Part shown: piece after piece, positions 3,975-29,336 of the stretch
How the letters are laid out: every line of letters starts with the position of its first letter
Numbering within the stretch: position 1 is the first letter of the stretch
IMG/VR virus record: IMGVR_UViG_3300002460_000608
Location: 1-29,382 of that record
Reading direction: 5' to 3' (one strand)
DNA length: 29,382 nucleotides
Source: a virus
Translations under genes and position numbers: made by a program
Notes under the pieces: model-generated
Databases searched by the model: none
What the model was told of the DNA's origin: nothing
Seen by the model: the letters and a program-made list of their open reading frames with translations, nothing else

Positions 3975-4235
3975 CTATCCTCCTATTACGTTTCTAAGCC
4001 ATGCTACTACAACAATTTGAAGAACGACGCCCGCCCCAAAGCAAATGTAGAATGCGTTTGAGATTCGGACTACTGCAGTCTTTATATTCTTAAGTTCAAT
4101 ATCCTTTATATTCTTAAACTCGCTCTTATCATCAAGCATGTGAATGTCAATCGTCCTAATAAGGTTGGCCAAGTTCTGGTCTACTCGGACTAGAAGGTCG
4201 TGATCTGCATCCATTTCTCTGCGTTCCTCGCTCAT
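3975..4235 (-). CDS. small coiled-coil/TM protein, holin- or XhlA-like
   Basis: 86 residues. The N-terminal about 55 residues are charged and helical (DLLVRVDQNLANLIRTIDIH, then repeated KNIK/LKNIK). A single C-terminal membrane helix spans about residues 60-83. This topology resembles XhlA-like hemolysin/holin accessory proteins, but key residues are not decisive. The start overlaps the upstream LamG gene stop as ATGA (4232-4235). Confidence 0.6.
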   Translation of the reverse strand: MSEERREMDADHDLLVRVDQNLANLIRTIDIHMLDDKSEFKNIKDIELKNIKTAVVRISNAFYICFGAGVVLQIVVVAWLRNVIGG

Positions 4236-9410: not shown

Positions 9411-9739
9411 TTGCACACCTTAGGAAAGAACATTCCCGTTTTCATTATGTACTCCTTATATGAGTCAAGATTTCTAAGGATTACTTCTTCCTGTATGGCT
9501 CTTGATAAGTAAAATACTACTATGAAATAGATTAAGGCTATGTGAATAGATAGGACAGCTAGTCCTATAAACATAACAATGCTTCCAACGTAAGATGGAT
9601 GGCGTACTATCCCATATATTCCATCTGTCTTAATACGCTCCGGCATTGAGATGGCTAGGTTAAACTTCCCCATGTGGCGTATAGAAACCATACGGATTAG
9701 TAATCCTGTTAGGAAAATTACAGCTCCTAGTCCTATCAT
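9407..9739 (-). CDS. ICMT/PEMT-like small membrane methyltransferase
   Basis: 110 residues. The motif G-I-Y-G-I-V-R-H-P-S-Y-V-G at 40-52 and EE at 84-85 followed by YKEY at 94-97 are the hallmark of the isoprenylcysteine carboxyl methyltransferase / phospholipid methyltransferase fold (RHPxYxG ... EE ... Y). Membrane helices lie at about 2-16, 52-67 and 68-80. It is shorter than usual family members (often 150-200), keeping the SAM-binding C-terminal core but little of the N-terminal membrane part. Substrates in the family are prenylated proteins, lipids or other small molecules; the substrate here is unknown. It is wedged between virion genes with ATGA overlaps on both sides (9736-9739 and 9407-9410), so it is co-expressed late. 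Confidence 0.8.
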   Translation of the reverse strand: MIGLGAVIFLTGLLIRMVSIRHMGKFNLAISMPERIKTDGIYGIVRHPSYVGSIVMFIGLAVLSIHIALIYFIVVFYLSRAIQEEVILRNLDSYKEYIMKTGMFFPKVCK

Positions 9740-15075: not shown

Positions 15076-15701
15076 GAGACTCTAATCCCACCAATATTAG
15101 AAACATCAAAAGAATCCTCAACGCATAGAAATTTTGATATATCATTCATTACAATCTTAGGAGATTGACACAATTCTTCATATTTCACTATCAAACAATT
15201 TGATTCATTAGACTTAGATAGTACAAAGTTTGTACATTTGTCATAACGGTTAGATAGTTCCTCATCTGGTACATTTTGGTTCCAATAGGCATTACGCATA
15301 GAAGCTAAATTAGCTTCTTTCTCTCGCCATATAAGTATCCATTTTGGACTTACAAGCTCATTAAACATGTCGAAATGACCTCTTGTAAGCTCTGTCCATT
15401 TATCTCCAATGTAAGAGTAGCCATCTCCACAAAATCTCTGATATATATTGATCCATTCTTCACGAAGAATAGATACGAACTTTTCTTTATCATCCCTACC
15501 AATCTTCCAACCCATGATCGGGTTATACCATTTCTTGTATCTACCCATATCATCACTTAAGATCAGGTCTTGGAGCCATGCTATAAAAAATAGAGGCCCT
15601 TCCTCATTCTTCATTCTGATAGAAGGATGTGTTCCAATGGTTTCAGCCAATATGCTTGTACCACTACGCTCACACCCTGAAACTAGAAGATAATTAGGCA
15701 T
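15072..15701 (-). CDS. sulfotransferase-family protein
   Basis: 209 residues. The 5'-phosphosulfate-binding P-loop is clear: VSGCERSGTSIL at 7-18. The next features are E-T-I-G-T-H-P-S-I and a 3'-phosphate-binding region (WREKEANLASMRNAYWN, with the usual R-x-P-x-x-x-x-x-S pattern changed to R-E-K ... S-M-R). KYEELCQSPKIVM follows near the end, as in Sulfotransfer_3-type enzymes. The family moves sulfate from PAPS to sugars or other acceptors. It overlaps the adaptor gene (ATGA) and follows a glycosyltransferase gene (8-bp overlap), suggesting sulfation of a phage- or host-borne glycan. Confidence 0.8.
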   Translation of the reverse strand: MPNYLLVSGCERSGTSILAETIGTHPSIRMKNEEGPLFFIAWLQDLILSDDMGRYKKWYNPIMGWKIGRDDKEKFVSILREEWINIYQRFCGDGYSYIGDKWTELTRGHFDMFNELVSPKWILIWREKEANLASMRNAYWNQNVPDEELSNRYDKCTNFVLSKSNESNCLIVKYEELCQSPKIVMNDISKFLCVEDSFDVSNIGGIRVS

Positions 15702-16548
15702 ATAACTCTACTCGGCCTTTGTTCTCATGCATCTGCTGACAGTGAACCCAGTTATTTAGCATACTTTTAAATCCATGTTCTTTAATTAGAGGGCCATAGG
15801 TTACATCCGGCCCCATGATTCCCATAAGTTTGTTTTGCATTATGGTAGAACGAAATAAGTGGCCTCTGATAAGAGTACAACCGAATGTGGTTGACCCAAC
15901 TTCTTCTACCCCACCATGTTGCTTATCTACATAATAAACCTCATATTGAGTATCAACTGTTCCATTGGTTACAATATGGCGGGGATGACAATTCCAGGCT
16001 AATGTCTTGCCACGATGCCTTCCATTCGGGCGATATGGCACTCGACCGCAAATTTGACCAATGTGATTATTTTCCATATATGGGAGAAGTTGGGCATATG
16101 CGTCTTGAGGAGCAATGATATCGTCCTCAAAAAGTAGAACATAATCAGGGTCGTTGACATACTCTCTTGAGAAGTTATAACCATCTGTGATAGCCTGATT
16201 TCGATTAGTCCAATCGCCTCCCTTCTTATCACCTCCTTTAGCCACTTGATGCTCATGATTTAGCACTAGAGTATTGGAATGAAATCCAGAGAGGCTTAAG
16301 AACTCTTTTTTGAGTCGTATACCAAACTGCTTATTACCTTTAGTAAATCCGATCCATAATATGTGGGTCTTAGCCTTAGGAAACTTCATTTTGTGGAAGT
16401 TTCGTAGCCACATGTTAAACATCTTATCTCTGGCTACGAACATGGTAAGGACGGTTAGCTCGGGTCTACCTTTTTTTGAAATGATAGGTGTCACATCAAC
16501 ACCATCTCCCATAGCATAAACGCCATCACCGCCAAGACCTGTTCCCAT
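15694..16548 (-). CDS. GT-A type glycosyltransferase
   Basis: 284 residues. A Gly-rich N-terminal tail (MGTGLGGDGVYAMGDGV) is followed by PELTVLTMFVARD, the first strand of a GT-A fold. The DxD-type metal site is YVLLFEDDIIAP, with a later STTFGCTLIRGHLF and VTYGPLIKEHG. It resembles GT2/Anp1-like transferases using nucleotide sugars. The Gly-rich start is unusual and could anchor it to a virion protein, but this is inference. It follows the small virion gene at 16551 by 2 bp and overlaps the sulfotransferase. Confidence 0.75.
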   Translation of the reverse strand: MGTGLGGDGVYAMGDGVDVTPIISKKGRPELTVLTMFVARDKMFNMWLRNFHKMKFPKAKTHILWIGFTKGNKQFGIRLKKEFLSLSGFHSNTLVLNHEHQVAKGGDKKGGDWTNRNQAITDGYNFSREYVNDPDYVLLFEDDIIAPQDAYAQLLPYMENNHIGQICGRVPYRPNGRHRGKTLAWNCHPRHIVTNGTVDTQYEVYYVDKQHGGVEEVGSTTFGCTLIRGHLFRSTIMQNKLMGIMGPDVTYGPLIKEHGFKSMLNNWVHCQQMHENKGRVELYA

Positions 16549-16550: not shown

Positions 16551-16844
16551 TTATTTTCCCGGACCAGTGAAATAGATCAAGACTTGAGCCATATCGGTTA
16601 ACGTCTTTATGAACATAGAGTTCACTTGCACTCCTCCGTAATACTTGAAGAAGTTTCTTTGATTTGCGATATCAGATTCAGCTCTGAACAGTGTAGGGCC
16701 GCCATCCGTCTGCTGAATCAAGGTTACCCATGTATCTGCGGAAGCCGTATAATCAATTGCAAGAACCTTAATTGGAAATGTAACCTGAGTAATTGCTCCG
16801 GTTGTATCTACTACAAGGACGTTCTGACTGGTTGCGTTTGCCAT
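16551..16844 (-). CDS. small beta-rich virion protein
   Basis: 97 residues, ATG with AAGGAG upstream. It reads SQNVLVVDTTGAITQVTFPI, then IDYTASADTWVTLIQQTDGG, then a C-terminal FIKTLTDMAQVLIYFTG: an all-beta pattern. It is probably a head, neck or appendage protein; no enzymatic motif is seen. It lies between another small virion gene and the glycosyltransferase. Confidence 0.65.
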   Translation of the reverse strand: MANATSQNVLVVDTTGAITQVTFPIKVLAIDYTASADTWVTLIQQTDGGPTLFRAESDIANQRNFFKYYGGVQVNSMFIKTLTDMAQVLIYFTGPGK

Positions 16845-16853: not shown

Positions 16854-17309
16854 TTACGAAACTGTGACAGTAGTCCAAGTAAATCGGTTACCAAACTGAT
16901 CCTCAAATGTTCCACTGATAGCTGTTGGAGTATCAACATCATCTACAGTCAAGCTGATGGGCTTCCAGAACTGGTAGATGTTGTTGGATGAATGGGAGGT
17001 GACAAATTCTCCAGCTAGACCATATGTAGCTACGGTATCTTGACCGTCAGCAGTTACGCCCCACGTTCTTGCTGTATTGCCATTTCCAGTCCCATTGGTG
17101 GAGTTAGCCGCCCACCTACGAATGGTGATCCGGCTACCATCGTCACAGAGGACTGAGCCATCCAGGTCATTCTGATAAGTGACAGCCGAAGCTCCACCAT
17201 CAGTTAGGGTAAAGGTGAATGCCTCAGCATTAGTCACCATATGTTTATGGCCACTCATATCGGGGTAATTCCACTCATCAGTGTCGATTGTAATTGTTTT
17301 TACGGCCAA
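16854..17309 (-). CDS. beta-rich virion protein with TTG start
   Basis: 151 residues. The start is a TTG at 17309 placed 8 bases after AAGGAG; that ribosome site and the first codons lie inside the 3' end of the HNH gene. The protein reads KTITIDTDEWNYPDMSGHKH, then FTFTLTDGGASAVTYQNDLD, then RFTWTTVTVS: all-beta, probably decoration or appendage. The HNH insertion may have reshaped its 5' end. Confidence 0.65.
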   Translation of the reverse strand: MAVKTITIDTDEWNYPDMSGHKHMVTNAEAFTFTLTDGGASAVTYQNDLDGSVLCDDGSRITIRRWAANSTNGTGNGNTARTWGVTADGQDTVATYGLAGEFVTSHSSNNIYQFWKPISLTVDDVDTPTAISGTFEDQFGNRFTWTTVTVS

Positions 17310-17836
17310 GTTTGCAACTCCTTATTTTTTTGCCTTGCTCGACCCATATAAGTATCGGTCTTGGCATGGCAAGGTTTACACAATGTTCTACCATTACTTA
17401 ATTCAAATCTTAATTCATTAAAATATGCAAAAGGTTTAATATGGTCAGCCTCTAAATAAACTCCATTAGCATTACAATTCTGACAAGTAAAATTGTCTCT
17501 TTTAAATACTAAATTTCTCCAATCGGCATACCTTCTGCTATTTCTAATTATTTTGTTTTCTTTAGTAACTCCACCACGCCAATTACAATTATTTTCACGA
17601 TAATTTCCAAACCCCAGCGGCTTATATCTCCCAATAGCAGACTGCTTATAGCACTCAAAAGAACAATATTTTCTATTTTTTCTACGAGAACCACCATTCT
17701 TTGTGTAGTATTCAGAGTTACAGTTACTACAGATACGTGGTTTCGCTGGTCTGGAAACAACTCCCAAATGAGACAGTGAGAGATTTGCTATATGGATTTC
17801 AGATAATTTCTTACCTTTATTCCAAGCTTTTCTCAC
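17300..17836 (-). CDS. HNH homing endonuclease with NUMOD3-like start and zinc finger
   Basis: 178 residues from a GTG at 17836 with AGGAG upstream. Residues 3-25 (KAWNKGKKLSEIHIANLS...) match the NUMOD3 DNA-binding motif of GIY-YIG/HNH homing enzymes. A zinc-finger-like C36-C39-C58-C62 follows. The HNH core is C118/C121, D131-H132 (LEADHIKPF), N148 and C153-C156-H157. It would cut DNA at a homing site to spread itself. It is AT-rich and sits between a methyltransferase gene and a virion gene, overlapping the latter by 10 bp. Confidence 0.88.
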   Translation of the reverse strand: MRKAWNKGKKLSEIHIANLSLSHLGVVSRPAKPRICSNCNSEYYTKNGGSRRKNRKYCSFECYKQSAIGRYKPLGFGNYRENNCNWRGGVTKENKIIRNSRRYADWRNLVFKRDNFTCQNCNANGVYLEADHIKPFAYFNELRFELSNGRTLCKPCHAKTDTYMGRARQKNKELQTWP

Positions 17837-17844: not shown

Positions 17845-18621
17845 CTAGAAAAATTTCTTTTGAGCGATTAAGTGAATGTCATCCCATACAGGGAATCGGT
17901 GCTCGTAGTTTTGGCGAGCTAGAATCACATTAAAGCCTAGATGTTCTAGGTGGCGAGTTATTGACCTTCTATTCCACATGATGTAATTCTCATCATGTTT
18001 CCAGTGGATGAAGCAGGAACTTGACCGAGTATTGATAAAATCAGTGTCTGGAGTCCCTATAAATATAATACCATCTTCAGCAAGAAGCTTATGGCAAAGC
18101 TCTAATGAACCTACCGGATTGTTAAAACATTCTAAAGTATTATAAATCCATATCATATTGTACTTTATGGATTCTGGAAACTTATGAGTCTCAAAGTCCT
18201 CAGATATGTAGTTATCCTGACTTACAATAGATGAGTTTTTATCAATAATGGTTGGAACCCATCCGCGCGATGCAAATGCTTCAGATTGATATGGGTTGAT
18301 TTGACCGACAAGCAGAACCCTCCTTCCATAGATTAACTCCTCAATAATTGGTGCATATACCTTGATTGGATACTGATACTCATCTTTCTTCTTCTCCCCA
18401 TACTCAACATATTTATCAATATAATTCCTATCATACTTAATGGATGGTTTCTGGGAATTAAATACTACTCCACAGGAGCAGGAGAACCATTTTGACTTCT
18501 TCTTTGTACTTGCATCCTGCATGTAATAAACATGGCAGACGTAAGCTGAACAAATTGGACAATTAGTTACTCTTAATTCCTCTTTCTCGATAATATCAAC
18601 CTTCTTTTTAAGATCTAGCAT
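17845..18621 (-). CDS. divergent class I methyltransferase-like protein with zinc ribbon
   Basis: 258 residues from the ATG at 18621, chosen for a perfect AGGAGG 6 bases upstream; an in-frame start at 18669 has no such site. The N-terminal ribbon is CPICSAYVCHV followed by FSCSCGVVF. The central strand GRRVLLVGQINPYQS stands where SAM motif I should be but lacks the G-x-G-x-G glycines. Later blocks IKYNMIWIYNTLECFNNPV and LLAEDGIIFIGTPD match methyltransferase motifs. It is similar in layout to the protein at 25789-26610. It is probably a sugar or glycan methyltransferase, or a non-catalytic relative. Confidence 0.7.
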   Translation of the reverse strand: MLDLKKKVDIIEKEELRVTNCPICSAYVCHVYYMQDASTKKKSKWFSCSCGVVFNSQKPSIKYDRNYIDKYVEYGEKKKDEYQYPIKVYAPIIEELIYGRRVLLVGQINPYQSEAFASRGWVPTIIDKNSSIVSQDNYISEDFETHKFPESIKYNMIWIYNTLECFNNPVGSLELCHKLLAEDGIIFIGTPDTDFINTRSSSCFIHWKHDENYIMWNRRSITRHLEHLGFNVILARQNYEHRFPVWDDIHLIAQKKFF

Positions 18622-19630
18622 TGTAGACCTCCTTAAATTTTGTATACACCTTATCCAGTGGTATGCCATCAGCCATACAGACGGAACTTCTAGTTATTGG
18701 ATTTAACGGACATTGTTGCTTCATGTCATAAATAAGGTAGAGACAAGGGGAGCATGGAGCTAACTTTTCATTAGATTCTATAGAGAAATCATTTATAAAA
18801 TATTTGGTTATGCATTCAATTGTATTGTGTCCAAGTAATCCAATTTTTGGTGTATCGAAGCAACCCGATGCATGAAGGAGTCCGGTATCTGGACTAATCA
18901 CCAAGTCCACAATGGAGGTAAGCGCCATACTCATCCTCATTGTTATTTTTCCAGAAAGCTTAGTTACATTCTTATCATCTATTGCATCTTCAAGAATCTG
19001 ACACTTTAAATCCCCAACTGTAATTATGTGGGCATCTGGATAATCATCCATGATCTTATTACACAAATCCATCATCCAAGGATAGGTCTTGTTAGTACCA
19101 CTACCAGATAGGCCGATAAGGACGTTGTAGCCAGGCTTCAGGTGCTTGCGGGCGTCATTAAGTTCCTTATTATCGAAGAATAGCTCAGGTCTTAGAAACT
19201 TAGCTATGCACTCTCTCCTGTATGATTCTGGCTCAGTAAGAGGCCATGTCCAATCTTCTTTTGCATGTTCAAAGCAATACTCGTAGAAGTTGCGATTAAA
19301 TCTAGCTATTCGTTCTTGCTTGGGGAGCTTGTAGTTGGGGGAGCGCGGATGTTGGGAGAGGGATACCTCAATAGATTCGTTAAGGTCGATCACCCTATCG
19401 CAGTTATGTTTCTTTCTCAGCCATTCAATATGTTTGCCCAATAACTCATTCTTAACATTCTTATCATGAGGAAGCATCTTGTAGATATGTGGGTTATTTT
19501 TGAATATCTGCTCTCCGCGCTCTCCACCAACATAAAATATCTTGTCACCCTTAGAATGTAGGTGACGAACAAGCGGAGTTACGACCAACCCATCTCCAAA
19601 TGCTCCGGTTCTCCATATGAGTGTATTCAT
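18608..19630 (-). CDS. GT9-family glycosyltransferase (heptosyltransferase-like) I
   Basis: 340 residues, ATG with AAAGGATT upstream. The N-terminal WRTGAFGDGLVVTPLVRHL is the GT9/ADP-heptose:LPS heptosyltransferase signature. The C-terminal half has VLIGLSGSGTNKTYPW, LVISPDTGLLHASGCF and the C-x-P-C type cluster APCSPCLYLIYD followed by CPLN. The family has a GT-B fold and uses ADP-heptose or other nucleotide sugars on LPS cores and, in some cases, proteins. It overlaps the next methyltransferase gene by 14 bp. Confidence 0.8.
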   Translation of the reverse strand: MNTLIWRTGAFGDGLVVTPLVRHLHSKGDKIFYVGGERGEQIFKNNPHIYKMLPHDKNVKNELLGKHIEWLRKKHNCDRVIDLNESIEVSLSQHPRSPNYKLPKQERIARFNRNFYEYCFEHAKEDWTWPLTEPESYRRECIAKFLRPELFFDNKELNDARKHLKPGYNVLIGLSGSGTNKTYPWMMDLCNKIMDDYPDAHIITVGDLKCQILEDAIDDKNVTKLSGKITMRMSMALTSIVDLVISPDTGLLHASGCFDTPKIGLLGHNTIECITKYFINDFSIESNEKLAPCSPCLYLIYDMKQQCPLNPITRSSVCMADGIPLDKVYTKFKEVYNARS

Positions 19631-19634
19631 CTAT

Positions 19635-20435
19635 TTAATCCTTTCTATATACTTCAAATGTTAACCTACCCCATGTCTTAGACTCTCCATCAAGAGGCAT
19701 TGAGGCCATTAGCTTCTGGTAGTCCAATCCGGCTAACTTCTCCAGCATTATTTTCTGATCTGTATCTACTACAATATTATTGGAACTTACCGTTACTGAA
19801 AGATGATGCAATACTATTGACTTTGGAACCAACATCACCTTCCAATGGTTGATTTTAGCTCTAAAGCAATAATCGGTATCAGAGCAATGATTTATCATCC
19901 TCTTGTCTAATAGCCCTATCTCCCTTATCATATCCATTCTAATAAGCGCAGAACATAAAGGTATCCAATTACATTCTATTGGACTGCTTGGCAACTTACT
20001 TTCATCTGCAAAATATTGATATCCTCTTATCAAATCTGACCCGCACAATTCCATACATTCAAATTTACGATCTTTGTGTCTGCGAACAGAAGCCGCTATT
20101 CCAATCGTTTTATCTGATTCTATGGTATCTACAAGATGTTTGAGAAAGTCGCGCTCAGGCTCCGTATCATTGTTTAACAACAACACATAATCATATTCAA
20201 ACTTTTGCGCCCATATAATCCCCGCATTACAAGCGGCTGTAAATCCAGAGTTTTTTTCCAACCTCAATAAATTAAATAAATCAGATTTATATCTATCAAT
20301 ATTGAATGGAACTTTAGAACCATCATCTACTATTAATATGTCATGATCGAAGCCAGCGTTCTTACAAACAAACTCAATACACCTCCTTGTGTATTCTTCT
20401 TTCCCATACATTGGAATTATTACGCAAATTTTCAT
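19635..20435 (-). CDS. GT2-family glycosyltransferase I
   Basis: 266 residues. GT-A fold markers: CVIIPMYGKEEYTRRCIEFV at the N-terminus, DILIVDDGS, NSGFTAACNAGI, the DxD-like VLLLNNDTEPERDF, then the acceptor-side IPLCSALIRMD and HCSDTDYCFRA. It transfers a nucleotide-activated sugar, probably in assembly of the cassette's glycan. The start overlaps the epimerase stop (ATGA). The D-x-D-Y-C motif also occurs in the GT2 at 24585-25358, so the two are probably related. Confidence 0.82.
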   Translation of the reverse strand: MKICVIIPMYGKEEYTRRCIEFVCKNAGFDHDILIVDDGSKVPFNIDRYKSDLFNLLRLEKNSGFTAACNAGIIWAQKFEYDYVLLLNNDTEPERDFLKHLVDTIESDKTIGIAASVRRHKDRKFECMELCGSDLIRGYQYFADESKLPSSPIECNWIPLCSALIRMDMIREIGLLDKRMINHCSDTDYCFRAKINHWKVMLVPKSIVLHHLSVTVSSNNIVVDTDQKIMLEKLAGLDYQKLMASMPLDGESKTWGRLTFEVYRKD

Positions 20436-21334
20436 TTCACATTCAACAAATCTAATGTTTCGTTGATTGATTTATGTAAATCACCTTCAAAATTAAATCC
20501 TAATTGAATAAACTTCTTATTTGAAATTGTGTATGAAAGCTGATTCATGATCCTACTATCAACATATTTTATTGATAAATCAGGAACTCTTTCTTTAATA
20601 ATATCTATTATATTCCTCACAGTAGTATTGATTGTAACTAGATTGAATATTTGGTTCGTACAATGGTTATCTATAACAAATTTTATAGCTCTTACAAAAT
20701 CATACAGGTCTAAATAGGGCCTATTTTGGTCAATTGCAGTTTTCCACACATTAATGGGTTGATTTATAGAAGCTTGAAAGCAAAATTTGTTTATAGCAGT
20801 GTGGAATCTAATTCCGTTAGATACCCCAAAAATAGTACCCATTCTGAATATGGTAAAACTAAGTCCATCCATATCCATTATTATCTTCTCTGATTCGATC
20901 TTTGATTCTGCGTATGGACTCTGAGGACTTAATTGAGTAGATGATTCGTCTACCTCTAGTATGGATACCCCATATACACTTGTTGTAGATGTGTAGATAA
21001 GATGACAACCTAATTTTGCACAAGCAGTTGCAACCCTTTTCGTTCCTTTTATATTAACCTCATCTACAATAGATTTCTTATCAAAACTGCTCTCAGCGTC
21101 AGTTATTGCGGCAAGATGTATAACAAAATCTGCTCCTTTAAATATGTTTACCAAATCTGAGGTCAGAATATCTGCTTCGATAAACTTATAATTAACTGTT
21201 GATGGGATATAAAATAACGAACAGTATCTTTGGGTGTAAAAGTTATCTACAAGTATCAATTCAGCGTCAAAAGGGAGATTATAAATTAGCTCAGAACCGA
21301 TATGACCCAAAGCGCCAGTAACAACTATTTTAAT
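20432..21334 (-). CDS. NAD-dependent epimerase/dehydratase (extended SDR)
   Basis: 300 residues if started at the ATT at 21334. A TTG at 21310 would give 292 residues but cuts off the first strand of the Rossmann fold. Upstream codons in frame read I-K-I-V-V-T-G-A-L-G-H-I-G, the expected G-x-x-G-x-x-G motif, and a stop lies two codons before the ATT. Other motifs are VIHLAAITDAESSF, LIYTSTTSVYG and the catalytic SPYAESK (Y133/K137 counted from the TTG). Such enzymes interconvert or dehydrate nucleotide sugars. The start seems to be non-canonical (ATT or ATA), coupled to the upstream gene, which ends at 21325. Confidence 0.8.
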   Translation of the reverse strand: MKIVVTGALGHIGSELIYNLPFDAELILVDNFYTQRYCSLFYIPSTVNYKFIEADILTSDLVNIFKGADFVIHLAAITDAESSFDKKSIVDEVNIKGTKRVATACAKLGCHLIYTSTTSVYGVSILEVDESSTQLSPQSPYAESKIESEKIIMDMDGLSFTIFRMGTIFGVSNGIRFHTAINKFCFQASINQPINVWKTAIDQNRPYLDLYDFVRAIKFVIDNHCTNQIFNLVTINTTVRNIIDIIKERVPDLSIKYVDSRIMNQLSYTISNKKFIQLGFNFEGDLHKSINETLDLLNVK

Positions 21335-22011
21335 AAATCACACATTTTCGTAATATCCAAACTTGTGTCTTTTGGAACCCAGTCTGGACATGGGATTGTT
21401 AAGATGTCTGGCTTGGTGCGTCTTGCGTAGGCTTCAAGAGTAGTCTTTTGGCCACCTACGTTCATTATTCCTGTGGCTTGGCTTAAAGTTGCTTTCAGGA
21501 CTAGATTAGCTATCTCGTCTACATAGAGTTTTGAGCTAACCTGACCCTCATATACTTTATCCCAAGGGAATGGGCGTGGGCCAAAGCTTAGACGTAGTAT
21601 GAGTGAGTTAGGAACCATGATTACTGAGCACTCCCCACCCAACTTTGACCATCCGAAGTTGTATGGGGGTTTGACCGGTTCATCTTCCTTGTGAGGGCCG
21701 GGGCCCTCATACACATAGTCAGTTGAGACGTAAACCATTCTGATGTTGGACTGTAGACAGACTAGGGCTAGGTTTGCAGTTCCTATGATGTTTGACTTGA
21801 TACCCCTCTCCGGCTGACTGTTGTGGAGGAGACAATCAGTATCTGCGGCAAGGTGAAGCACAACATCTGGATGGAAGTAATAGAGTTCACGCTCGATGGC
21901 TTCTAAGTTAGTGACATCAAATTTAGATCTTGTTGGGGCATATATTGAGGAATCTATCTTCAATATCTCAATACCCAACATACCGGAACCGCCAGTCATG
22001 AGTATCCTCAC
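21325..22011 (-). CDS. RmlD-like dTDP-4-keto sugar reductase
   Basis: 228 residues from a GTG at 22011 that overlaps the upstream stop (GTGA). Rossmann motif ILMTGGSGMLG at 3-13, VLHLAADTD at 51-59 and VYVSTDYVYEGPGP at 93-106 are RmlD-like. The catalytic Y-x-x-x-K is F-G-W-S-K at 119-123, so the usual Tyr is Phe, although Y117 is two residues away. The protein is shorter than RmlD (usually about 290), mainly at the C-terminus. It may reduce a 4-keto deoxysugar or be catalytically altered. Confidence 0.75.
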   Translation of the reverse strand: MRILMTGGSGMLGIEILKIDSSIYAPTRSKFDVTNLEAIERELYYFHPDVVLHLAADTDCLLHNSQPERGIKSNIIGTANLALVCLQSNIRMVYVSTDYVYEGPGPHKEDEPVKPPYNFGWSKLGGECSVIMVPNSLILRLSFGPRPFPWDKVYEGQVSSKLYVDEIANLVLKATLSQATGIMNVGGQKTTLEAYARRTKPDILTIPCPDWVPKDTSLDITKMCDLLK

Positions 22012-22400
22012 GATATTAAATCCTTATATTCTTCATAATCCCTAATATAATCAGACTCATCAAACGGATGGCTTGCTAGACCAACTAGAATAGTGTCTCT
22101 GGATTGATAGAACTGAGAAGACCAAACCATTGGGGGAATATATAGACCAATATTATCAGATGAACTGATGCAAAACTTCCTCTCACTTTCTAAGTTATCA
22201 CAAATAATATCCACGCTTCCTTTGATACAAATAAGAAGTTGTTTACATTTCTTATGAGCATGATGTCCCCGAATATAGCTAGGCTTTACCATGGAAACAT
22301 AAAATATTCTCTTTACGTCAAATGGTGTCTCTAAAAATGAGATATCTCCATTCATTTCACTTATATAATTTATCTTAATCAACTCAACATTATTAATCAT
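22008..22400 (-). CDS. FdtA/WxcM-like dTDP-4-oxo-6-deoxyhexose 3,4-ketoisomerase
   Basis: 130 residues, cupin fold. IRGHHAHKKCKQLLICIKGS at 43-62 carries the family's R-G-x-H-A-H-K motif, with R44, H47 and H49 as likely active-site residues. YIPPMVWSS is the second cupin half. FdtA-type enzymes move the keto group of dTDP-4-oxo-6-deoxyglucose from C4 to C3, making the substrate for a 3-aminotransferase. The neighbouring gene encodes just such an aminotransferase and overlaps by 4 bp. Confidence 0.83.
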   Translation of the reverse strand: MINNVELIKINYISEMNGDISFLETPFDVKRIFYVSMVKPSYIRGHHAHKKCKQLLICIKGSVDIICDNLESERKFCISSSDNIGLYIPPMVWSSQFYQSRDTILVGLASHPFDESDYIRDYEEYKDLIS

Positions 22401-23407
22401 AACTCCACCTGTGGATACATTGGTAAGGACAAAACTTGCTTTGAAGCAAGCTCTGTATATTTCATGCTTCCCGAGACTCTAACTAAATCACGATAGGCGG
22501 GTTGTTTATGTATTGGGACTGGATAATGAATTGCTGTTTTGATTCCCCTATCTTTTAAATATTTAATTTTACTTTCCCTATTCCTACATTTTATTACATA
22601 TAAATGATGGACTGAATCTTCATCACAAGTTCCATAAGATTTAGCAATATCCCTCCGCCTGTTATTATCAATATCCAAATATTTGAGTTTAACATTTAGG
22701 ATTGCGGCCTGTATCTCATCCAACCTGGAGTTATACCCATGAATCTCACTTACATACCGCTTCTTCCATCCATATTGACGGAGCAATAGAAGCTTCTCAT
22801 ACAGCTTCTTACTATTGGTCGTGATGGCTCCTCCATCTCCAAAGCACCCGAGATTCTTCGTTGGATAAAAACTAAAACAACCAATGGTTCCGATACTACC
22901 AACCTTCTCTTGATTAATTTCAGCTCCAGTTGATTGAGCGCAATCCTCAATTACATGAAGTCTATTCTTCTTTGCTATTAATTTAATCTCATCCATATTG
23001 CATGGTTTGCCATATAAATGCACTGGCAATATTGCCTTGGTTTTATGTGAAATAGCTTTCCCTATATTCTTTGGGTCTATATTAAAACCTCTCTGTTCAA
23101 TATCTACTAATACTGGCATTGCACCAGTCATAATAATTGCAGAAACTGTAGCCACCGCAGTATGAGATACAGTTATAACCTCATCACCACTACCAATTCC
23201 CAATGCTTTCATACCAAGCCATAATGCATCTGTTCCGCTGGCAACCCCAACAGCATGTTGAACCCCTATGTATTTTGAGAAGTTAGATTCAAACTTTCTA
23301 ACCTCATCCCCCAATATATAAGAGCCACTATCCAGCACCTTTTGAATTGCCGAATCTATCTGATACTTATGTTCTAAATATGAGGCTTTGGGATCAGATA
23401 GCTTCAT
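22397..23407 (-). CDS. DegT/DnrJ/EryC1 PLP sugar aminotransferase (FdtB-like)
   Basis: 336 residues from the ATG at 23407, which overlaps the upstream stop (TGATG); an in-frame upstream start would run into the previous gene. Family motifs: SGSYILGDEVRKFE at 27-40, VASGTDAL at 55-62, HVIEDCAQSTGA at 151-162 and the PLP lysine in SFYPTKNLG (K184). GYNSRLDEIQAA follows at 224-235. Next to FdtA, the likely reaction is 3-amination of dTDP-3-keto-6-deoxyhexose (Fuc3N/Qui3N type). It is somewhat short: a segment after about residue 258 and the extreme C-terminus look trimmed compared with the usual 360-370 residues. Confidence 0.85.
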   Translation of the reverse strand: MKLSDPKASYLEHKYQIDSAIQKVLDSGSYILGDEVRKFESNFSKYIGVQHAVGVASGTDALWLGMKALGIGSGDEVITVSHTAVATVSAIIMTGAMPVLVDIEQRGFNIDPKNIGKAISHKTKAILPVHLYGKPCNMDEIKLIAKKNRLHVIEDCAQSTGAEINQEKVGSIGTIGCFSFYPTKNLGCFGDGGAITTNSKKLYEKLLLLRQYGWKKRYVSEIHGYNSRLDEIQAAILNVKLKYLDIDNNRRRDIAKSYGTCDEDSVHHLYVIKCRNRESKIKYLKDRGIKTAIHYPVPIHKQPAYRDLVRVSGSMKYTELASKQVLSLPMYPQVEL

Positions 23408-24588
23408 CAAAGTATGGCAACCTTCGGAACATAAGATATCCATTTACCTGTATATCCGGCTTCTTTCTCCATTATTTCTTTAGAATGATTCCAAGCAAAC
23501 AGTAATGTGTGGGAAGGAGGATTATCTAACCACTCCTGATATGGCTTAATTGGAATGTGAGAACCCGGACTAAACTTACCCTGCTTGATTGGGGTTGTGT
23601 CACAGATGTAGTCAATTAAGTTGTGGCGAATGCCGCAGTAATTGGTGATAGTCGCACTCTTAGCGGTTGCCGCATATCCAACAACTTGATGTCCTTTAGA
23701 CTTTATCTTAAGAATAAGATTTACTAATTTGTTTCTTGATTTCTCAACATTATCCTTAAAGTTCTCATAGGTTTCTTGTTTATGAAAATTATTAATTTTC
23801 TCTTTTACTAACATGAAATTAACAAATTTATTTATCTTATACATTCCACTATGAGCTACTGTATACCTCATAGACCCGCCATGAGTTTTTTGAGGATGGA
23901 CATCTATAATTTCCATATCATGCTGATTAAGTAGATAACTTAGCGAAGTAATACTAAAATAAAAAGCATGTTCATCATAGATTTGGTCATACGAGGTCTT
24001 ATCCAAGATATCTCCTAAGTATGGATCTTCAAAGATTAATACCCCATCATACTTCAATAAATTCTTAACCCCTCTCAATACAGAATGTAAATCTGGAATA
24101 TGAGCCATAACATTAGCCGATAGAATTACGTCGACTTTCCTTGTATTCTGAATATTTCCATCAAAAAAAGCTGAAATTGTATTAACTCCATTTTGTCTAG
24201 CAATGGTCGCTACATTCTCAGATGGTTCAAAACCAAGGTGTTCTATTCCTCTACTTGCAAAATGCTTCAATAGAATTCCATCATTGCTACCTATTTCAAC
24301 AACAAACTTTGGTTGATAGCGGTCAATTACATCATTAGCAAACTTCTCAAAGTGATTAGCCATGTGCTTAGAAGATGATGAGTAGAATGCATAGTTCTCA
24401 TGAAACATTTGGGAACGATCTGGTTGATCTGTAAGTTGAACCATGAAGCATTTGGTACAGAAAGCAACCTTCATGTCAAAGAAGTATTCATCCTTAAACT
24501 CAGACTCATGGAGGAATCCATTGGCGATAGGCTGCTTGCCAAAGTCAATGAATGGGGAGATTGGATTAGAACATATCATACATTTCAT
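23407..24588 (-). CDS. NDP-hexose C-methyltransferase (TylC3/NovU-like)
   Basis: 393 residues with the three-part layout of this family. A zinc-binding N-terminus (C3, C6, C44, C47, with GKQPIANGFL between) is followed by a SAM domain with motif I FVVEIGSNDGILL at about 95-107. The catalytic-type YDEHAFYFS comes next, and then a C-terminal Methyltransf_14-like domain with VVGYAATAKSATITNYCG. Relatives such as TylC3 and NovU add a C-methyl branch at C3 or C5 of deoxysugars. It overlaps GT2 upstream (ATGA) and the aminotransferase downstream, so it is part of the same sugar pathway. Confidence 0.86.
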   Translation of the reverse strand: MKCMICSNPISPFIDFGKQPIANGFLHESEFKDEYFFDMKVAFCTKCFMVQLTDQPDRSQMFHENYAFYSSSSKHMANHFEKFANDVIDRYQPKFVVEIGSNDGILLKHFASRGIEHLGFEPSENVATIARQNGVNTISAFFDGNIQNTRKVDVILSANVMAHIPDLHSVLRGVKNLLKYDGVLIFEDPYLGDILDKTSYDQIYDEHAFYFSITSLSYLLNQHDMEIIDVHPQKTHGGSMRYTVAHSGMYKINKFVNFMLVKEKINNFHKQETYENFKDNVEKSRNKLVNLILKIKSKGHQVVGYAATAKSATITNYCGIRHNLIDYICDTTPIKQGKFSPGSHIPIKPYQEWLDNPPSHTLLFAWNHSKEIMEKEAGYTGKWISYVPKVAIL

Positions 24589-25358
24589 CTGCGAGACTCC
24601 TTGTAAATTGATTGTCCATATAGATGTTCCTGAGAGTTGATTGGGAGAATATTTGCTAAGTAATTAAATTTTGTACCGAACCACTTGGATTTGAGAGCGC
24701 CTAAGTCATCTGCTCGTTCAACTGGATACTCACGGTATGAGGTTCCGCCAAAGTGAGTGATGTTAGACTCTGGAACAAATACTACGTCCCATCCTCTGTC
24801 TAACGCATGAATGCAATAGTCAGAGTCGGAACAGTAGTCCTGATAGCGAGTATCCTGTAGTCCTATCATCCTCATCATCTTAGCTCGGTACATATGGAAG
24901 GATCCTTGGAGCCAATTGACTTCGGTGCGCTCTGTAGGCCAACTACGGTAGATGTAGCCGGATAGATCAGAGCCTACTGAGTAGAAATCAGTACCCTCTT
25001 TGTTCCACTGCTTTCCAGCGCAAATTCCAGTGGTGGGATGCTCCTCCATTTCCTTGGTGAGAGGTTCAAGCCAACCTTTGTGGACTAGTGTGTCATTGTC
25101 TAAATTCACAATATAGTCACATTCGCCAAATGATTCATACAAAGCATAGTAGAAACCAAAGTTCATGCCTGAAGTTGAATAACGAGAATCATTACGAATA
25201 ACCGTTACCCCATCCATCTGTTCTAGAGGAATAGGAGAATTATTATCTACAACATAGATATTGTATAAATCTGGTGGAGTGTTCTCCTTAATAGATTGAA
25301 TACAAGCCTTAGTTAAATCTTCCTTGATATAGTGAAGTATTACGATGCCAGTTGTCAT
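24585..25358 (-). CDS. GT2-family glycosyltransferase II
   Basis: 257 residues. Markers: GIVILHYIKEDLTKACIQSI, YVVDNNSP, the DxD-type YIVNLDNDTLVHKGW, WLQGSFHMYRA and YCSDSDYCIHALDRGWDV. It is a GT-A fold glycosyltransferase, probably adding one sugar of the cassette's glycan. The ATG has no clear ribosome site. Its first 13 coding bases are copied at the start of the gene upstream, which does have one (see the 15-bp direct repeats). Confidence 0.82.
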   Translation of the reverse strand: MTTGIVILHYIKEDLTKACIQSIKENTPPDLYNIYVVDNNSPIPLEQMDGVTVIRNDSRYSTSGMNFGFYYALYESFGECDYIVNLDNDTLVHKGWLEPLTKEMEEHPTTGICAGKQWNKEGTDFYSVGSDLSGYIYRSWPTERTEVNWLQGSFHMYRAKMMRMIGLQDTRYQDYCSDSDYCIHALDRGWDVVFVPESNITHFGGTSYREYPVERADDLGALKSKWFGTKFNYLANILPINSQEHLYGQSIYKESRR

Positions 25359-25360
25359 TT
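25346..25360. repeat. 15-bp direct repeat, copy 1
   Basis: TGCCAGTTGTCATTT, identical to 25780-25794, 434 bp apart. It covers the start codon of the GT2 gene. Confidence 0.85.
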
Positions 25361-25792
25361 TTTATAAGCTCTTAATTCTTTAATTAAAGTATCATTATAT
25401 GCTTCTAATTCTTCTCCTTCATAAAATCTTCCACCAGTATATACATTGTAAATAAACATGTAATCCTCACCTGGCCCCATCCTATAACCCATACTTCCAT
25501 CTTCATAACCAGTATATTCTTTTGGAGATTTCACAGAGTTATCTTCATTAAGACAATCTGGAAATAAATTAATCAATCTTTTTAAGGCTATTGCCTTTAC
25601 TACATTTTTTGGTATTTCAGAAATCTTGTTTGGAACAAAATTAGGATGTTCACATCCAATATTTACAATACCATTCTGAGGACAACAACCATCACATAAA
25701 CCACCAACATGTTCAAGATTATGATTACATACAAAAACTCCAGTCTCATAAACCTTAAGAGTACAAATATAATCTAGTTTGCCAGTTGTCAT
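25355..25792 (-). CDS. Cys-rich protein of unknown function, probable late insertion
   Basis: 145 residues, ATG overlapping the methyltransferase stop (ATGA), with GGAGGATT upstream. The N-terminal half is cysteine-rich: YETGVFVCNHNLEHVGG, CDGCCPQNG and GCEHPNFVP, suggesting metal binding. The middle has VVKAIALKRLINLFPDC and the C-terminus is acidic. No family is recognised. The DNA is more AT-rich than its neighbours. Its first codons (MTTG) duplicate those of the next gene. It looks like a small gene inserted at the junction of methyltransferase and GT2. Confidence 0.7.
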   Translation of the reverse strand: MTTGKLDYICTLKVYETGVFVCNHNLEHVGGLCDGCCPQNGIVNIGCEHPNFVPNKISEIPKNVVKAIALKRLINLFPDCLNEDNSVKSPKEYTGYEDGSMGYRMGPGEDYMFIYNVYTGGRFYEGEELEAYNDTLIKELRAYKK

Positions 25793-25794
25793 TT
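25780..25794. repeat. 15-bp direct repeat, copy 2
   Basis: TGCCAGTTGTCATTT, identical to 25346-25360. It covers the start codon of the 145-residue protein gene. Confidence 0.85.
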
Positions 25795-26610
25795 AGAATC
25801 CTCCAGTTTGAATATCGTCCTCGATTCGTTAATCCAACTGTAATTTTTACCTAATTCTAGGACATCTGTGCTGATGTTTCCATAGATACATTCTAGTCCG
25901 CACTCCTCCTTCGCAAAATCTATCCAATCATACATATTCCAAAGGGTGTGATGCTCCTGTACCATCCAGTACCATGCAAGCGGATCAGACCAGTTAATAT
26001 GGTGAGTATCTGGCATGGCGTTGAATATGATTCCACCGGGGTTAAGAAGACATTTAGCCTTAAGTAATGCATCCTTAGGACTCTTGGTGTGCTCTATGAA
26101 GTGAGACATCCAAATGATGTCGAACTTCTCGGAGAACTCGTAATCCTCAAAGTTACCAGTTATGAGCTTATGCTTGGACTTACGAGGAATGATGTCAATA
26201 GTGGTGAGACTCATGTTCGACCAGTTATTCTTAGACAAGTAGTCTAGGAAGGTGTCCTCGTAGTCGCCTACATTGAGAAGGCTCTTGGGCTTCGGAGCAA
26301 ACTTCTGTACAACCTCCCACTGCTTCTGAACTTCCATCAATCTGGAGGATTTGTCCCCATCATCTCCGCCCTCAGATTCAAGGTAGTCGATGTCGTAAAC
26401 TGCAAGGTCGATGTTTTTCCAATCAGTGAAGAATATATTGCGACAGTTGCAAAATGAATATCCTCTATCTCCAACCACGTTAATTGTCTTGTCTTCTAGA
26501 TCACGAACCTTTCCCCTCATCATGATGGTTTGGAGTTGACCGCAGAGAGGGCATGCTTGTTTCTGCCTCATGCTGAGCTTTTGAAGCTCTCTACACTGGA
26601 TGTAATCCAT
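25789..26610 (-). CDS. divergent class I methyltransferase-like protein with zinc ribbon (paralogue)
   Basis: 273 residues. An N-terminal ribbon (CPLCGQLQ ... FCNCRNIFF) is followed by a Methyltransf_11/23-like domain. Motif I is SLLNVGDYEDTF, again without the G-x-G-x-G glycines. Motif-like blocks FDIIWMSHFIEHTKSPKDAL and LLNPGGIIFNAMPDTHHINW follow. Same layout as the protein at 17845-18621, including the W-x-x-x-E/D-x-x-x-x-W-N segment (EHHTLWN here, KHDENYIMWN there). Likely a SAM-dependent sugar methyltransferase or a relative that lost SAM binding. The start ribosome site is weak (TAGG). Confidence 0.72.
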   Translation of the reverse strand: MDYIQCRELQKLSMRQKQACPLCGQLQTIMMRGKVRDLEDKTINVVGDRGYSFCNCRNIFFTDWKNIDLAVYDIDYLESEGGDDGDKSSRLMEVQKQWEVVQKFAPKPKSLLNVGDYEDTFLDYLSKNNWSNMSLTTIDIIPRKSKHKLITGNFEDYEFSEKFDIIWMSHFIEHTKSPKDALLKAKCLLNPGGIIFNAMPDTHHINWSDPLAWYWMVQEHHTLWNMYDWIDFAKEECGLECIYGNISTDVLELGKNYSWINESRTIFKLEDSK

Positions 26611-26620
26611 TTAAAAGCGC

Positions 26621-26797
26621 CTATTTATTTTCAAGAGACGCTTTTGCAGAATTTGAAAGAATTGAAATTCTATCAAAGATGGACTTAACTATTTCAATCA
26701 TTACCTTATCATTCATACGAGCATCATCTCTTGTTATTACATAAAGATACTGAGCATCATCTGAAATCATTTCAACAAGAACCTTAACTTCTTTCAT
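26621..26797 (-). CDS. 58-residue small protein
   Basis: ATG at 26797 with a strong GAGGAGAT about 6 bases upstream; stop TAG at 26621-26623. The sequence MKEVKVLVEMISDDAQYLYV, then a charged helix (NDKVMIEIVKSIFDRISIL), suggests a small alpha/beta protein. No family is recognised. It fills the space between the GT9 and methyltransferase genes and leaves 10 bp before the latter. Confidence 0.65.
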   Translation of the reverse strand: MKEVKVLVEMISDDAQYLYVITRDDARMNDKVMIEIVKSIFDRISILSNSAKASLENK

Positions 26798-26855
26798 TTT
26801 GAATCTCCTCTACTTTTTGTATACAGCCTTCTTTATGAGAATAAATGTCTATCAT
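26784..26855 (-). CDS. possible 23-residue coupled peptide
   Basis: ATG at 26855 overlaps the GT9 stop (ATGA at 26852-26855). It encodes MIDIYSHKEGCIQKVEEIQN and three more residues, and its stop lies just inside the next gene's start region. It carries the ribosome site of the 58-residue gene inside its coding sequence. It is possibly only a coupling leader. Confidence 0.3.
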   Translation of the reverse strand: MIDIYSHKEGCIQKVEEIQNERS

Positions 26856-27820
26856 TTTTCATATATCCTTTCAAATTGTTCCATTATTTTATCCACCTCA
26901 AAGAATACACATAGTGGATAGTTATCCTTTGTGGGACATCCCCAGTAATCATATGGATTCTTATGGCATGGAGAACAGCGAGCGGGAGATTGCAAACTAT
27001 GATCATTCTCCGCATACTTCACATGGTTATTGATTGAAGCGGCAGTCAGTAGCTGGATAGTAGGTGTTCCATGACAACTTGCCCCGCACATCATACCGGA
27101 TTCTGTGCCTATGACACAGTTCATGTACTTTGCCATAAGGAGGACTTGACGAAATGGCATCTGGCCGGATAGGTGAATCACACCCTCTCGCTTGGAATCT
27201 ATACCTTCGGAGAGTTTATCCCCTGTGGTAAATACTTGGGCATCAGAATAGGTATCCATAATCCTATCAATGACTTCCTTAGATTGAACGAATACTTTAT
27301 GAGGAGAAGATCCGGAGAGGTTGATCAACACCTTAAACTTGTCCTGATACTTAGCTAGATAATTCCCAACAACTCTTTCTTCTGATTTAGAAAAGTAAAG
27401 CTCACCCCTATACTTACCAACCAAGTGATGGAATCCTGCGGCCTTAGTAGCTACATCGTAATAATTGTCCCCACCCATCCTATCTCTAGTCTTCTGATCT
27501 AAGAAATATTCCTTCTGGAATTGGCCGGGGAGGACGCCAACCTCAATGATCTGGTTCAGGTTAATGACAGTATCATATTCCCTTCCTATGACGGCTAGGC
27601 GAGTATTAAAGTAGTCTATTCCGAGAGCCTTAGTGAAGTCTCCGAGTTCTGCGTAATGGAGTCGATCAATAAATGGGTTATTCTTTAGAATATTTGCTCC
27701 CCGTTTTCCGGTAGAGAAACCAACGAAGTCATAGCCATTTTCTTTGAGGAGGCGGGGAATGTGACTGACATGTATCATGTCACCAAAAGCAGCATGTCTA
27801 GCAACTAAAACTGATTTCAA
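26852..27820 (-). CDS. GT9-family glycosyltransferase (heptosyltransferase-like) II
   Basis: 322 residues from a TTG at 27820, 5 bases after AAGGAG. The N-terminal VARHAAFGDMIHVSHIPRLL is the GT9 signature. The C-terminal half has VLINLSGSSPHKVF, CVIGTESGMMCGASCHGTP and RCSPCHKNPYDYWGCPTKDN, the same cysteine cluster as in the GT9 at 18608-19630. It is the first gene of the sugar cassette after the capsid module and the intergenic hairpin. Donor and acceptor are unknown. Confidence 0.8.
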   Translation of the reverse strand: MKSVLVARHAAFGDMIHVSHIPRLLKENGYDFVGFSTGKRGANILKNNPFIDRLHYAELGDFTKALGIDYFNTRLAVIGREYDTVINLNQIIEVGVLPGQFQKEYFLDQKTRDRMGGDNYYDVATKAAGFHHLVGKYRGELYFSKSEERVVGNYLAKYQDKFKVLINLSGSSPHKVFVQSKEVIDRIMDTYSDAQVFTTGDKLSEGIDSKREGVIHLSGQMPFRQVLLMAKYMNCVIGTESGMMCGASCHGTPTIQLLTAASINNHVKYAENDHSLQSPARCSPCHKNPYDYWGCPTKDNYPLCVFFEVDKIMEQFERIYEK

Positions 27821-27893: not shown

Positions 27894-28367
27894 TTAACTA
27901 TCTGATTCGACAAACGTCTCAAAAACCTCAAGTTCTACAGTGAGGTTAAGAGGATCGTCCCACGCACCTTCAGCCGTGAAGATAACCATATCTCCAGTGT
28001 TGAATGACGTAGGGGTTGCGCTGAGAGCAAAATCAGCACCATTGAGACCAGGGTCAGTAAACACCCAAGTCCCAGTAGCGCCTAGCCCATCAGCCGTACC
28101 AAGTACTGCCTCAAGACCCGTTCCGCTATCGGTGGATTTGAACAACTGGAACTCAGTATTCTGAGTTAAGTCGGTCGGCCCATTCACGATAGCATTCCCA
28201 CCAAAACGAAGTTTTGCGGCAATCAGTTTCGCTGGAAACATAAACTGATGAGAAGCATATACTCCGTTAGTGGCGAGGGTTTGAGTTGCGCCTGACAAAC
28301 CGCCGATATTGATAATCTTATGAGCACCATAAGATTGGTCTGAATAACTTCTTCCGCCTTGTGACAT
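27894..28367 (-). CDS. small virion protein, possible capsid decoration
   Basis: 157 residues, ATG after AAGGGGA, 18 bp from the capsid gene. The sequence is beta-rich and Gly/Thr-rich: KIINIGGLSGATQTLATNG, then FPAKLIAAKLRFGGNAIVNG, ending in LTVELEVFETFVESDS. The position right after the major capsid gene suggests a head decoration or stabilising protein. No enzymatic motif is present. Confidence 0.65.
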   Translation of the reverse strand: MSQGGRSYSDQSYGAHKIINIGGLSGATQTLATNGVYASHQFMFPAKLIAAKLRFGGNAIVNGPTDLTQNTEFQLFKSTDSGTGLEAVLGTADGLGATGTWVFTDPGLNGADFALSATPTSFNTGDMVIFTAEGAWDDPLNLTVELEVFETFVESDS

Positions 28368-28385: not shown

Positions 28386-29336
28386 TTATAGTGAATCGAC
28401 AGTTATGATACGAGTTTGACCGTCAGCCTGACCGTTTAATATGCCGCTTTGACTCCAAACTTGCTGGAATCCAAGTAATGCATACCAAGCGATTGCCTGA
28501 TCGCGACCAAAGTCAGTGGGAATCCCCACTCGGATTTCTTCAGGAATAGCAACACCCTCACGAACCGCATCCGCACCAAAGAAACAGGCTTCGCCATACA
28601 GCCCATTTGATCCATCGGTGTTTGAGAGGAAGTTGGTTTCTTCAACGAATCTACAGCCGTAGTAACGTCCAACTTCCCCGATATAAAGCGGATCCATTGT
28701 GGTTAATTGAGCTTTAGACTCAAAGAAGTCATACAACCCTCTGATTGAGTTCGTGGAAGCCACACAAACATACAGTCCATCATTGGAGCGAGTGGGAACA
28801 AACCCCTTCTTCATCTGATCAATGATGTCGCGCACGTTTTTGTCCGACATGTTAGCACCGGCGGTAGCAACCTTCGTACCGCTTGAACCAAATGTCGTGG
28901 TGGCCGTATTTGTGATAGTAGCGATATAATCGTTGGTCATAAACTGCGTTGCGGCCGCAGAGTCCAACACAACCTTCATATCGTTAGTAAGCACAGTTCT
29001 AACCGTTTCAGGAACCTGAATATCTGCCAAGGTTTTGACCTTCTGAGTGTAAGGAATTGAATTCCCATACTCAGTCATAGTCAAAGTTCCTTGGAGGATA
29101 GTATAGTTCCTCTTAGGAATCGTATCCGTTTCAACAAGTGTTCCACCCGCAGTAGAGATGTTCGAGATTTTATCAAAGAACACCTTGTTACCACGGTTAG
29201 CTCCAGCAGCCGCTTCAAAATCGACAAATTGCCGAAATTTCTGCATGGACTGAGCTTTGTAGCGCAACTGTTGAGACAGGGTGTTGTTTGTGAAGAACCC
29301 GCCAAGCGAGTTTGTCGCAAATACCTGTTGTCCCAT
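28386..29336 (-). CDS. major capsid protein (HK97-fold, N4-gp56-like)
   Basis: 316 residues, ATG with GGAG upstream. The pattern matches the N4-gp56-type capsid family: LSQQLRYKAQSMQKFRQFVD near the N-terminus, TIPKRNYTILQGTLTMTEYG at 72-91, SIPYTQKV at 93-100 and LTNDMKVVLDSAAATQF near residue 125. GLYVCVASTNSIRGLYDF and a C-terminal FGRDQAIAWYALLGFQQVW follow. No N-terminal scaffold or protease delta domain is visible, so maturation cleavage is unlikely or minor. The protein builds the icosahedral shell. Upstream head genes would lie beyond the window edge. Confidence 0.85.
   Translation of the reverse strand: MGQQVFATNSLGGFFTNNTLSQQLRYKAQSMQKFRQFVDFEAAAGANRGNKVFFDKISNISTAGGTLVETDTIPKRNYTILQGTLTMTEYGNSIPYTQKVKTLADIQVPETVRTVLTNDMKVVLDSAAATQFMTNDYIATITNTATTTFGSSGTKVATAGANMSDKNVRDIIDQMKKGFVPTRSNDGLYVCVASTNSIRGLYDFFESKAQLTTMDPLYIGEVGRYYGCRFVEETNFLSNTDGSNGLYGEACFFGADAVREGVAIPEEIRVGIPTDFGRDQAIAWYALLGFQQVWSQSGILNGQADGQTRIITVDSL

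Follow-up and report, generated by a model that had tools for sequence, protein, structure and literature searches.

A candidate virion-glycosylation locus behind the capsid gene in uncultured viruses resembling short-tailed phages

Introduction

Few phages are known to carry glycans on their virions, and the co-evolution of the enzymes with their acceptors is an open field. In mycobacteriophage Corndog, gp35-gp38 comprise an O-methyltransferase, two glycosyltransferases and a putative GlcNAc-transferase, encoded between portal and protease (PMC4351075), and PMC10877033, in its citation of Freeman et al. 2023, refers to glycosylation of both capsid and tail in mycobacteriophages. The T4-like cyanophages P-SSM2, S-SSM7 and S-SM2 have genomes reaching 232-252 kb and carry lipopolysaccharide (LPS) gene clusters in the neighbourhood of hli03 or of phoH and tRNA genes; the authors who described these clusters doubted their function (PMC3037559). 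The capsid protein of PBCV-1 is glycosylated, and Mimivirus has a pyridoxal phosphate (PLP) aminotransferase for viosamine (PMC4691112). Here we analyze a 29,382-base stretch of viral DNA (the window), corresponding to bases 1-29382 of the 30,685-base linear IMG/VR record IMGVR_UViG_3300002460_000608, in which a cassette of glycosyltransferase, methyltransferase and deoxysugar genes lies between the major capsid protein (MCP) gene and a head-tail adaptor gene. Like the cyanophage clusters, it is a large polysaccharide-type gene set in a phage; unlike them, it forms a compact, conserved locus joined to the capsid genes, on contigs no longer than about 47 kb. Judging from the genes alone, we consider it fairly probable that an uncultured short-tailed-phage-like group glycosylates its virions through this locus, here in a version with an unusual sugar of its own, and with a small protein encoded next to MCP (dec) as the first acceptor.

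Results

Domains in the window's proteins were assigned using Pfam cut-offs, complemented by phrog, NCBIfam and Protein Data Bank (PDB) matches. An earlier note on this DNA had placed eleven sugar enzymes between the capsid module and the tail module on one strand. This is borne out: all eleven are encoded by the minus strand at 17845-27820, each scoring above its Pfam cut-off. The inventory was incomplete in that it omitted a second block at 15072-16548 (a sulfotransferase and GTx284), the open reading frame (ORF) u145 and an HNH gene. In the direction of the minus strand, which carries every gene of the locus, the order is a coiled-coil-like protein, MCP, dec, the glycosyltransferase GT9a, the methyltransferase MTa, u145, GT2a, a sugar C-methyltransferase (CMT), DegT, FdtA, an RmlD-like enzyme, an epimerase, GT2b, GT9b, MTb, HNH, s151, s97, GTx284, the sulfotransferase and the adaptor.

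The joining of glycosylation genes to the capsid gene extends across the group. Relatives of the MCP (28386..29336; phrog_1357 major head protein, E 1.6e-13) were identified on 31 viral contigs at 59-93% identity. Among the 20 contigs that continue for at least some 6 kb behind MCP, the GT9-family member GT9b (18608..19630; PF01075, 31.8 bits) lies downstream of MCP in all 20, and its paired methyltransferase MTb (17845..18669; PF13489, 27.5 bits, cut-off 27) in 19. A GT9b profile scan yielded 65 viral loci; a related MCP is present in the flank of 52 of the 60 newly fetched ones and MTb in 54, while the remaining eight have no MCP within the stretch covered. Gene order is altered in a few loci (L121, L130). 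The 5' part of the locus is variable: in many relatives it consists of CMT-GT9a-MTa, and other variants contain GT4-type transferases (L027, L031), a membrane protein (L029) or, in the place of GT9a, a radical SAM/SPASM protein (L028:12762-13757).

With respect to its nearest relatives, the window's MCP is 90-94% identical and the adaptor that forms the right flank of the locus (14059..15075; PF24175 SU10_adaptor, E 1.9e-6) 80-91% identical, whereas identities drop to 32-38% for dec (27894..28367, 157 aa), 36-44% for the GT9-family glycosyltransferase GT9a (26852..27820; PF01075, 23.2 bits, cut-off 22) and 30-37% for the S-adenosylmethionine (SAM)-dependent methyltransferase MTa (25789..26610; PF13489, E 1.5e-13), with GT2b, GT9b and MTb at about 60-70%. 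Given these identities, everything from dec through to the epimerase represents, by sequence comparison, a different allele lying between vertically inherited flanks. The earlier description of the cassette as inserted is only partly right. The deoxysugar genes represent one allele of a swappable upstream part, but a glycosylation locus is general in the phage group and most of the block dates back to its ancestor; the downstream GT9b-MTb pair hardly varies and follows the capsid protein. In one relative (L005), the dec type of the window (72% identity) is followed directly by the same GT9a type.

The dec gene starts 18 bp after MCP and lies 10-18 bp from it in nearly all loci, at distances of up to 1.5 kb from GT9a. 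Its product, probably a capsid decoration protein, has a conserved N-terminal YSDxSYG motif and a variable remainder. The predicted structure is all-beta, and the weak, jelly-roll-like matches to exosporium, C1q/TNF and capsid proteins (TM-scores about 0.3-0.5) are suggestive at most, coming from a model of middling confidence (pLDDT 67). Co-variation was assessed with partial Mantel tests over 26 loci, removing MCP distance and using 500 permutations. Distances for dec were correlated with those for GT9a (r = 0.75) and MTa (r = 0.64; P = 0.002 for both), and showed no significant correlation with GT9b (0.07) or MTb (0.06); MCP, in turn, was correlated with GT9b when GT9a distance was removed (r = 0.81). 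As far as these distances indicate, dec varies with GT9a and MTa, and not with the adjoining MCP. Since dec is nearer to MCP than to GT9a, closeness alone is insufficient to account for its tie to GT9a, and we propose dec as the first glycan acceptor.

The deoxysugar genes in the window define most of a nucleotide-sugar pathway. CMT (23407..24588; PF08421, PF13489 and PF08484; PDB 5t64, E 5.6e-132) has the three-domain architecture of PF08421, SAM domain and PF08484, and matches the KijD1/TcaB9-type 3-C-methyltransferases over its full length. The DegT-family PLP enzyme (22397..23443; PF01041, E 1.2e-107) matches sugar aminotransferases (PDB 7b0d and 2oga, and QdtB, 3frk), DesV-type enzymes among them, and the FdtA/QdtA-type 3,4-ketoisomerase (22008..22400; PF05523, E 6.4e-39) matches the QdtA and WxcM structures and has both His residues of the HxH motif. 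A 3,4-ketoisomerase paired with a DegT aminotransferase, as in the dTDP-3-amino-3,6-dideoxyhexose pathway, is hence present. Two short-chain dehydrogenase/reductases (SDRs) follow. The RmlD-like SDR is short (21325..22011, 228 aa; PF04321, E 1.1e-26), falls below the NCBIfam cut-off for RmlD (90 vs 224 bits) and has, both in the window and in the related contig L038, a Phe at the position of the usual catalytic Tyr of the Tyr-x-x-x-Lys pair, a substitution that may possibly reflect a change of reaction. In the epimerase-type SDR (20432..21324; PF01370, E 1.1e-27; motif STTSVYG), the Asp-Glu pair found in 4,6-dehydratases is absent. The most likely start of this SDR, as read from the sequence, is a rare ATT codon at about 21324, which overlaps the end of the RmlD-like gene and lies upstream of the TTG that had been listed as its start. 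Because the L038 homologue has an ATG at the same place, the ATT start was preferred, as the simpler option, over a -1 frameshift joining the two SDR genes, which was set aside.

The earlier note had also spoken of a whole sugar pathway. Most steps are indeed there, short of the first ones: no PF00483 (RmlA) match was obtained in 12 long related records and none is found among the window's annotated ORFs, the window has no RmlB-like SDR, and PF16363 gave just the two SDRs already known in the 12 related records. Since neither RmlA nor RmlB was found, dTDP-4-keto-6-deoxyglucose would have to be supplied by the host. A 3-amino-3,6-dideoxy or a 3-C-methyl-6-deoxy hexose is the probable product. 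When FdtA isomerises the sugar, the C-4 ketone on which KijD1-type methylation probably depends is lost, so that the gene set fits either product; two sugars, or an unusual reaction order, are possible.

The deoxysugar run recurs in two further contigs, 3300020045_005634 (L038, to which L077 and L127 also belong), found by a GT9a scan, and 3300002460_000556 (L080), found by the GT9b profile scan; the two have their first bases within GT9a, and MCP and dec are thus not part of them. Both have the order GT9a-MTa-GT2a-CMT-DegT-FdtA-RmlD-epimerase-GT2b-GT9b-MTb-s151-adaptor, as in the window, and both are missing u145, HNH and, between s151 and adaptor, the sulfotransferase and GTx284. Cassette proteins of the window are 52-84% identical to those of L038 and L080, and across the cassette the proportion of synonymous differences (pS) is 0.65-0.95, near saturation, against 0.10-0.31 for nonsynonymous differences (pN). 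Because synonymous sites are nearly saturated while pN is low, these sequences indicate that the cassette is under purifying selection and has long been kept in the phage lineage.

The CMT, FdtA and DegT relatives in the phage collection are distant, and GT9a and GT9b had no match there at the sensitivity used; a single-protein CMT scan of viral contigs gave no match, its exact peptide patterns being probably too strict. A DegT scan of a genome collection was tried as a route to the host of origin and assigned none, its best match being 51% identical (Anaerolineales). In a bacterial locus (L040), DegT and CMT occur together with a near relative of the epimerase, which shows where such gene sets live, not the source of the window's set. 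The DegT of Aphanizomenon phage Yong-DA was rejected as an analogue; the polysaccharide region in which it lies also contains replication and ParA/ParB genes, and the stretch around it has no virion genes.

Among the remaining genes of the locus, GT2a (24585..25358; PF00535, E 3.7e-17) and GT2b (19635..20435; PF00535, E 7.1e-21) are glycosyltransferases, and u145 (25355..25792, 145 aa) has no Pfam or NCBIfam match. Downstream of MTb lie the HNH endonuclease gene (17300..17836; PF01844 and phrog_144), probably a mobile passenger, and s151 (16854..17309), conserved after MTb in many relatives. They are followed by s97 (16551..16844), by GTx284 (15694..16548), a probable GT-A glycosyltransferase with a weak PF00535 match (E 0.0088), an EDD motif and a poor structure model (pLDDT 37), and by the sulfotransferase (15072..15701; PF13469, E 2.2e-7). 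A GTx284 that is 83% identical occurs, beside a related sulfotransferase and a protein related to s97, in a phage whose capsid gene is different (L076:7995-9775), which suggests that these three genes travel together as a mobile tailoring module moving between unrelated phages.

Cassette genes overlap by 1-62 bp at nine junctions, by 4 bp in most of them, as the previously noted overlapping starts had implied. The exceptions are gaps of 4 bp ahead of GT9b, 73 bp ahead of GT9a and 241 bp from GT9a to MTa, the last of which contains a short ORF of ~60 aa (26616..26801, approximate limits placed by eye in the sequence). Neither promoter-like (37 vs 47 expected) nor terminator-like sites (6 vs 9 expected) were in excess, and one late transcript covering capsid genes and cassette is plausible.

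Several observations concern the surroundings. The gene before MCP encodes a 316-aa coiled-coil-like protein whose end is outside the window. In several relatives (L118, L030, L033, L116, L121) the MCP gene is interrupted beside an HNH gene; an Rfam search identified a group I intron in one of them (L118:3536-3792) and gave no match for the interrupted MCP genes of L030, L033 and L116. Two virion proteins with LamG/concanavalin-like domains, at 11885-14059 (724 aa, with an amidase-annotated phrog match) and 4232-5032 (266 aa), are possible sugar binders. A small membrane protein of PEMT/ICMT methyltransferase type is encoded among the tail genes (9407-9739), and the left end of the record (window 3-1001, plus strand) encodes a protein with many short DATx/GATx repeats followed by a DUF6745 domain.

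Discussion

The proposed mechanism is as follows. The capsid protein, the small dec and soluble cytoplasmic enzymes would be made late from one gene run; the only predicted membrane segment in the cassette is a stretch in the PLP enzyme that is taken as buried. Host-derived dTDP-4-keto-6-deoxyglucose would enter the pathway, FdtA and DegT taking it towards a 3-amino-3,6-dideoxyhexose and/or CMT placing a branch methyl on C-3, and the two SDR enzymes would set the final oxidation state and stereochemistry. GT9a would then start the glycan on dec, GT2a, GT2b and GT9b would extend the chain, in an order of transfer that we infer, and MTa and MTb would methylate it. The benefit to the phage may be escape from surface-binding defences, or adhesion, both of which are speculation.

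Several points weigh against this proposal. The 11 loci carrying CMT show a weak correlation of dec with GT9a (r = 0.37, P = 0.11), and dec correlates also with MTb (r = 0.45) among the 15 loci that lack CMT. Co-variation can possibly come from the co-transfer of neighbouring genes with no enzyme-acceptor relation, the structure model of dec is low in confidence, and the RmlD-like enzyme has lost its usual catalytic Tyr. All records are linear and possibly incomplete, such that missing genes could lie outside them, and the glycosylation of the virion is predicted from gene content. It is conceivable, though in our judgment unlikely, that the acceptor is another part of the virion (MCP, s151 or a tail fibre) and that dec and GT9a are linked merely through joint recombination. 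The strong tracking of MCP by GT9b-MTb, which persists when GT9a is removed and would allow MCP to be their acceptor, is in keeping with this, as is the position of s151 directly after MTb in many loci. A neutral breakpoint should, however, split dec from GT9a, at up to about 1.5 kb, more often than from MCP, at 10-18 bp, and the opposite is observed.

A role at the host surface has to be weighed as well; where genes of this type turn up in metagenomes, they are often interpreted as altering the surface of the host. The cassette would in this case remodel O-antigen or capsule late in infection, blocking re-adsorption or superinfection. Its enzymes are of LPS/O-antigen type, GT9 including LPS heptosyltransferases and FdtA/DegT occurring in O-antigen loci, bacterial DegT-CMT-epimerase clusters such as L040 exist, and the glycosyltransferases and deoxysugar genes of pelagimyophages were read in this way by their authors, who interpreted the glycosyltransferases as O-chain modifiers (PMC7029224). 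Soluble glycosyltransferases could still use host lipid-linked precursors, with host carriers serving. The usual partners are nonetheless missing: in the 13 records searched, possibly incomplete, there was no match to the initiating transferase (PF02397) or flippase (PF01943) of Wzx/Wzy-type O-antigen synthesis or to GtrA (PF04138) of GtrABC-type seroconversion, and the cassette has no membrane-bound glycosyltransferase. Moreover, neither the tight group-wide linkage to capsid genes nor the co-variation with dec would be expected, and a change made together with late genes has little time to act. Between the two roles offered by the earlier note, coating of the virion is hence favoured, and remodelling of O-antigen appears improbable. 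Modification of phage DNA bases against restriction is far less probable still. Phage GT2-type enzymes can perform it, and the GT2 of one relative matches a TET-associated glycosyltransferase very weakly (E 0.029), but no match to the thymidylate-synthase family (PF00303, base hydroxymethylation) was found in the 13 records, and GT9, the sulfotransferase and the capsid linkage do not fit. The idea that the contig is a misassembly of phage with host polysaccharide DNA, to which the GC content of 32-42% in parts of the cassette versus 44-48% in MCP/dec might point, retains almost no credibility. The search for the same cassette in related phages, as had been suggested, returned the same gene order in two independent contigs of other metagenome datasets, with saturated synonymous divergence, which rules misassembly out, and the closest DegT in the genome collection is just 51% identical.

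If the locus does glycosylate the virion, its constant and variable parts might form a serotype-like system, an extension that we put forward tentatively. A capsid-linked core (GT9b-MTb) would be combined with an interchangeable block, consisting of dec, the glycosyltransferase and methyltransferase that match it and, optionally, genes for sugar synthesis, that is exchanged as a unit, so that near-identical capsids would bear different glycan coats. A lineage-wide locus with one constant and one swappable part names a small acceptor candidate that is testable with two genes. The locus further suggests that a modest genome may suffice for a phage to encode the greater part of an unusual nucleotide-sugar pathway for use on its own particles.

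Compared with known systems, the locus combines features that are otherwise found apart. CMT, DegT and FdtA are full-length homologues of enzymes from the kijanose/tetronitrose (KijD1, TcaB9) and Fuc3N/Qui3N (FdtA/FdtB, QdtA/QdtB) pathways; unlike these pathways, the cassette has no 2,3-dehydratase, acyltransferase, RmlA or RmlB, and its mix of enzymes equals none of them. As in PBCV-1 and Mimivirus, both nucleotide-sugar enzymes and glycosyltransferases are virus-encoded, yet viruses and hosts are unrelated, and here the host must start the pathway because no 4,6-dehydratase was found. The cultured distant relatives Xuquatrovirus PTXU04 and Vibrio phage D65, with MCPs 37-40% identical, have a similar order of MCP, small beta-type protein and adaptor; in contrast to the window, their MCP-adaptor gap holds small ORFs only, without a glycosyltransferase, methyltransferase or sugar gene and with no match to any cassette profile. 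As in Corndog, glycosyltransferases and a methyltransferase lie within the virion structural operon, here on the same strand, but here they are of the GT9 and GT2 families, are placed between capsid/decoration and adaptor, and come with enzymes of nucleotide-sugar biosynthesis. The association of glycosyltransferases with the structural operon, seen in the mycobacteriophage-type locus, is here conserved across related phages, and what sets this locus apart from the mycobacteriophage case is its lineage-wide structure of constant and variable parts.

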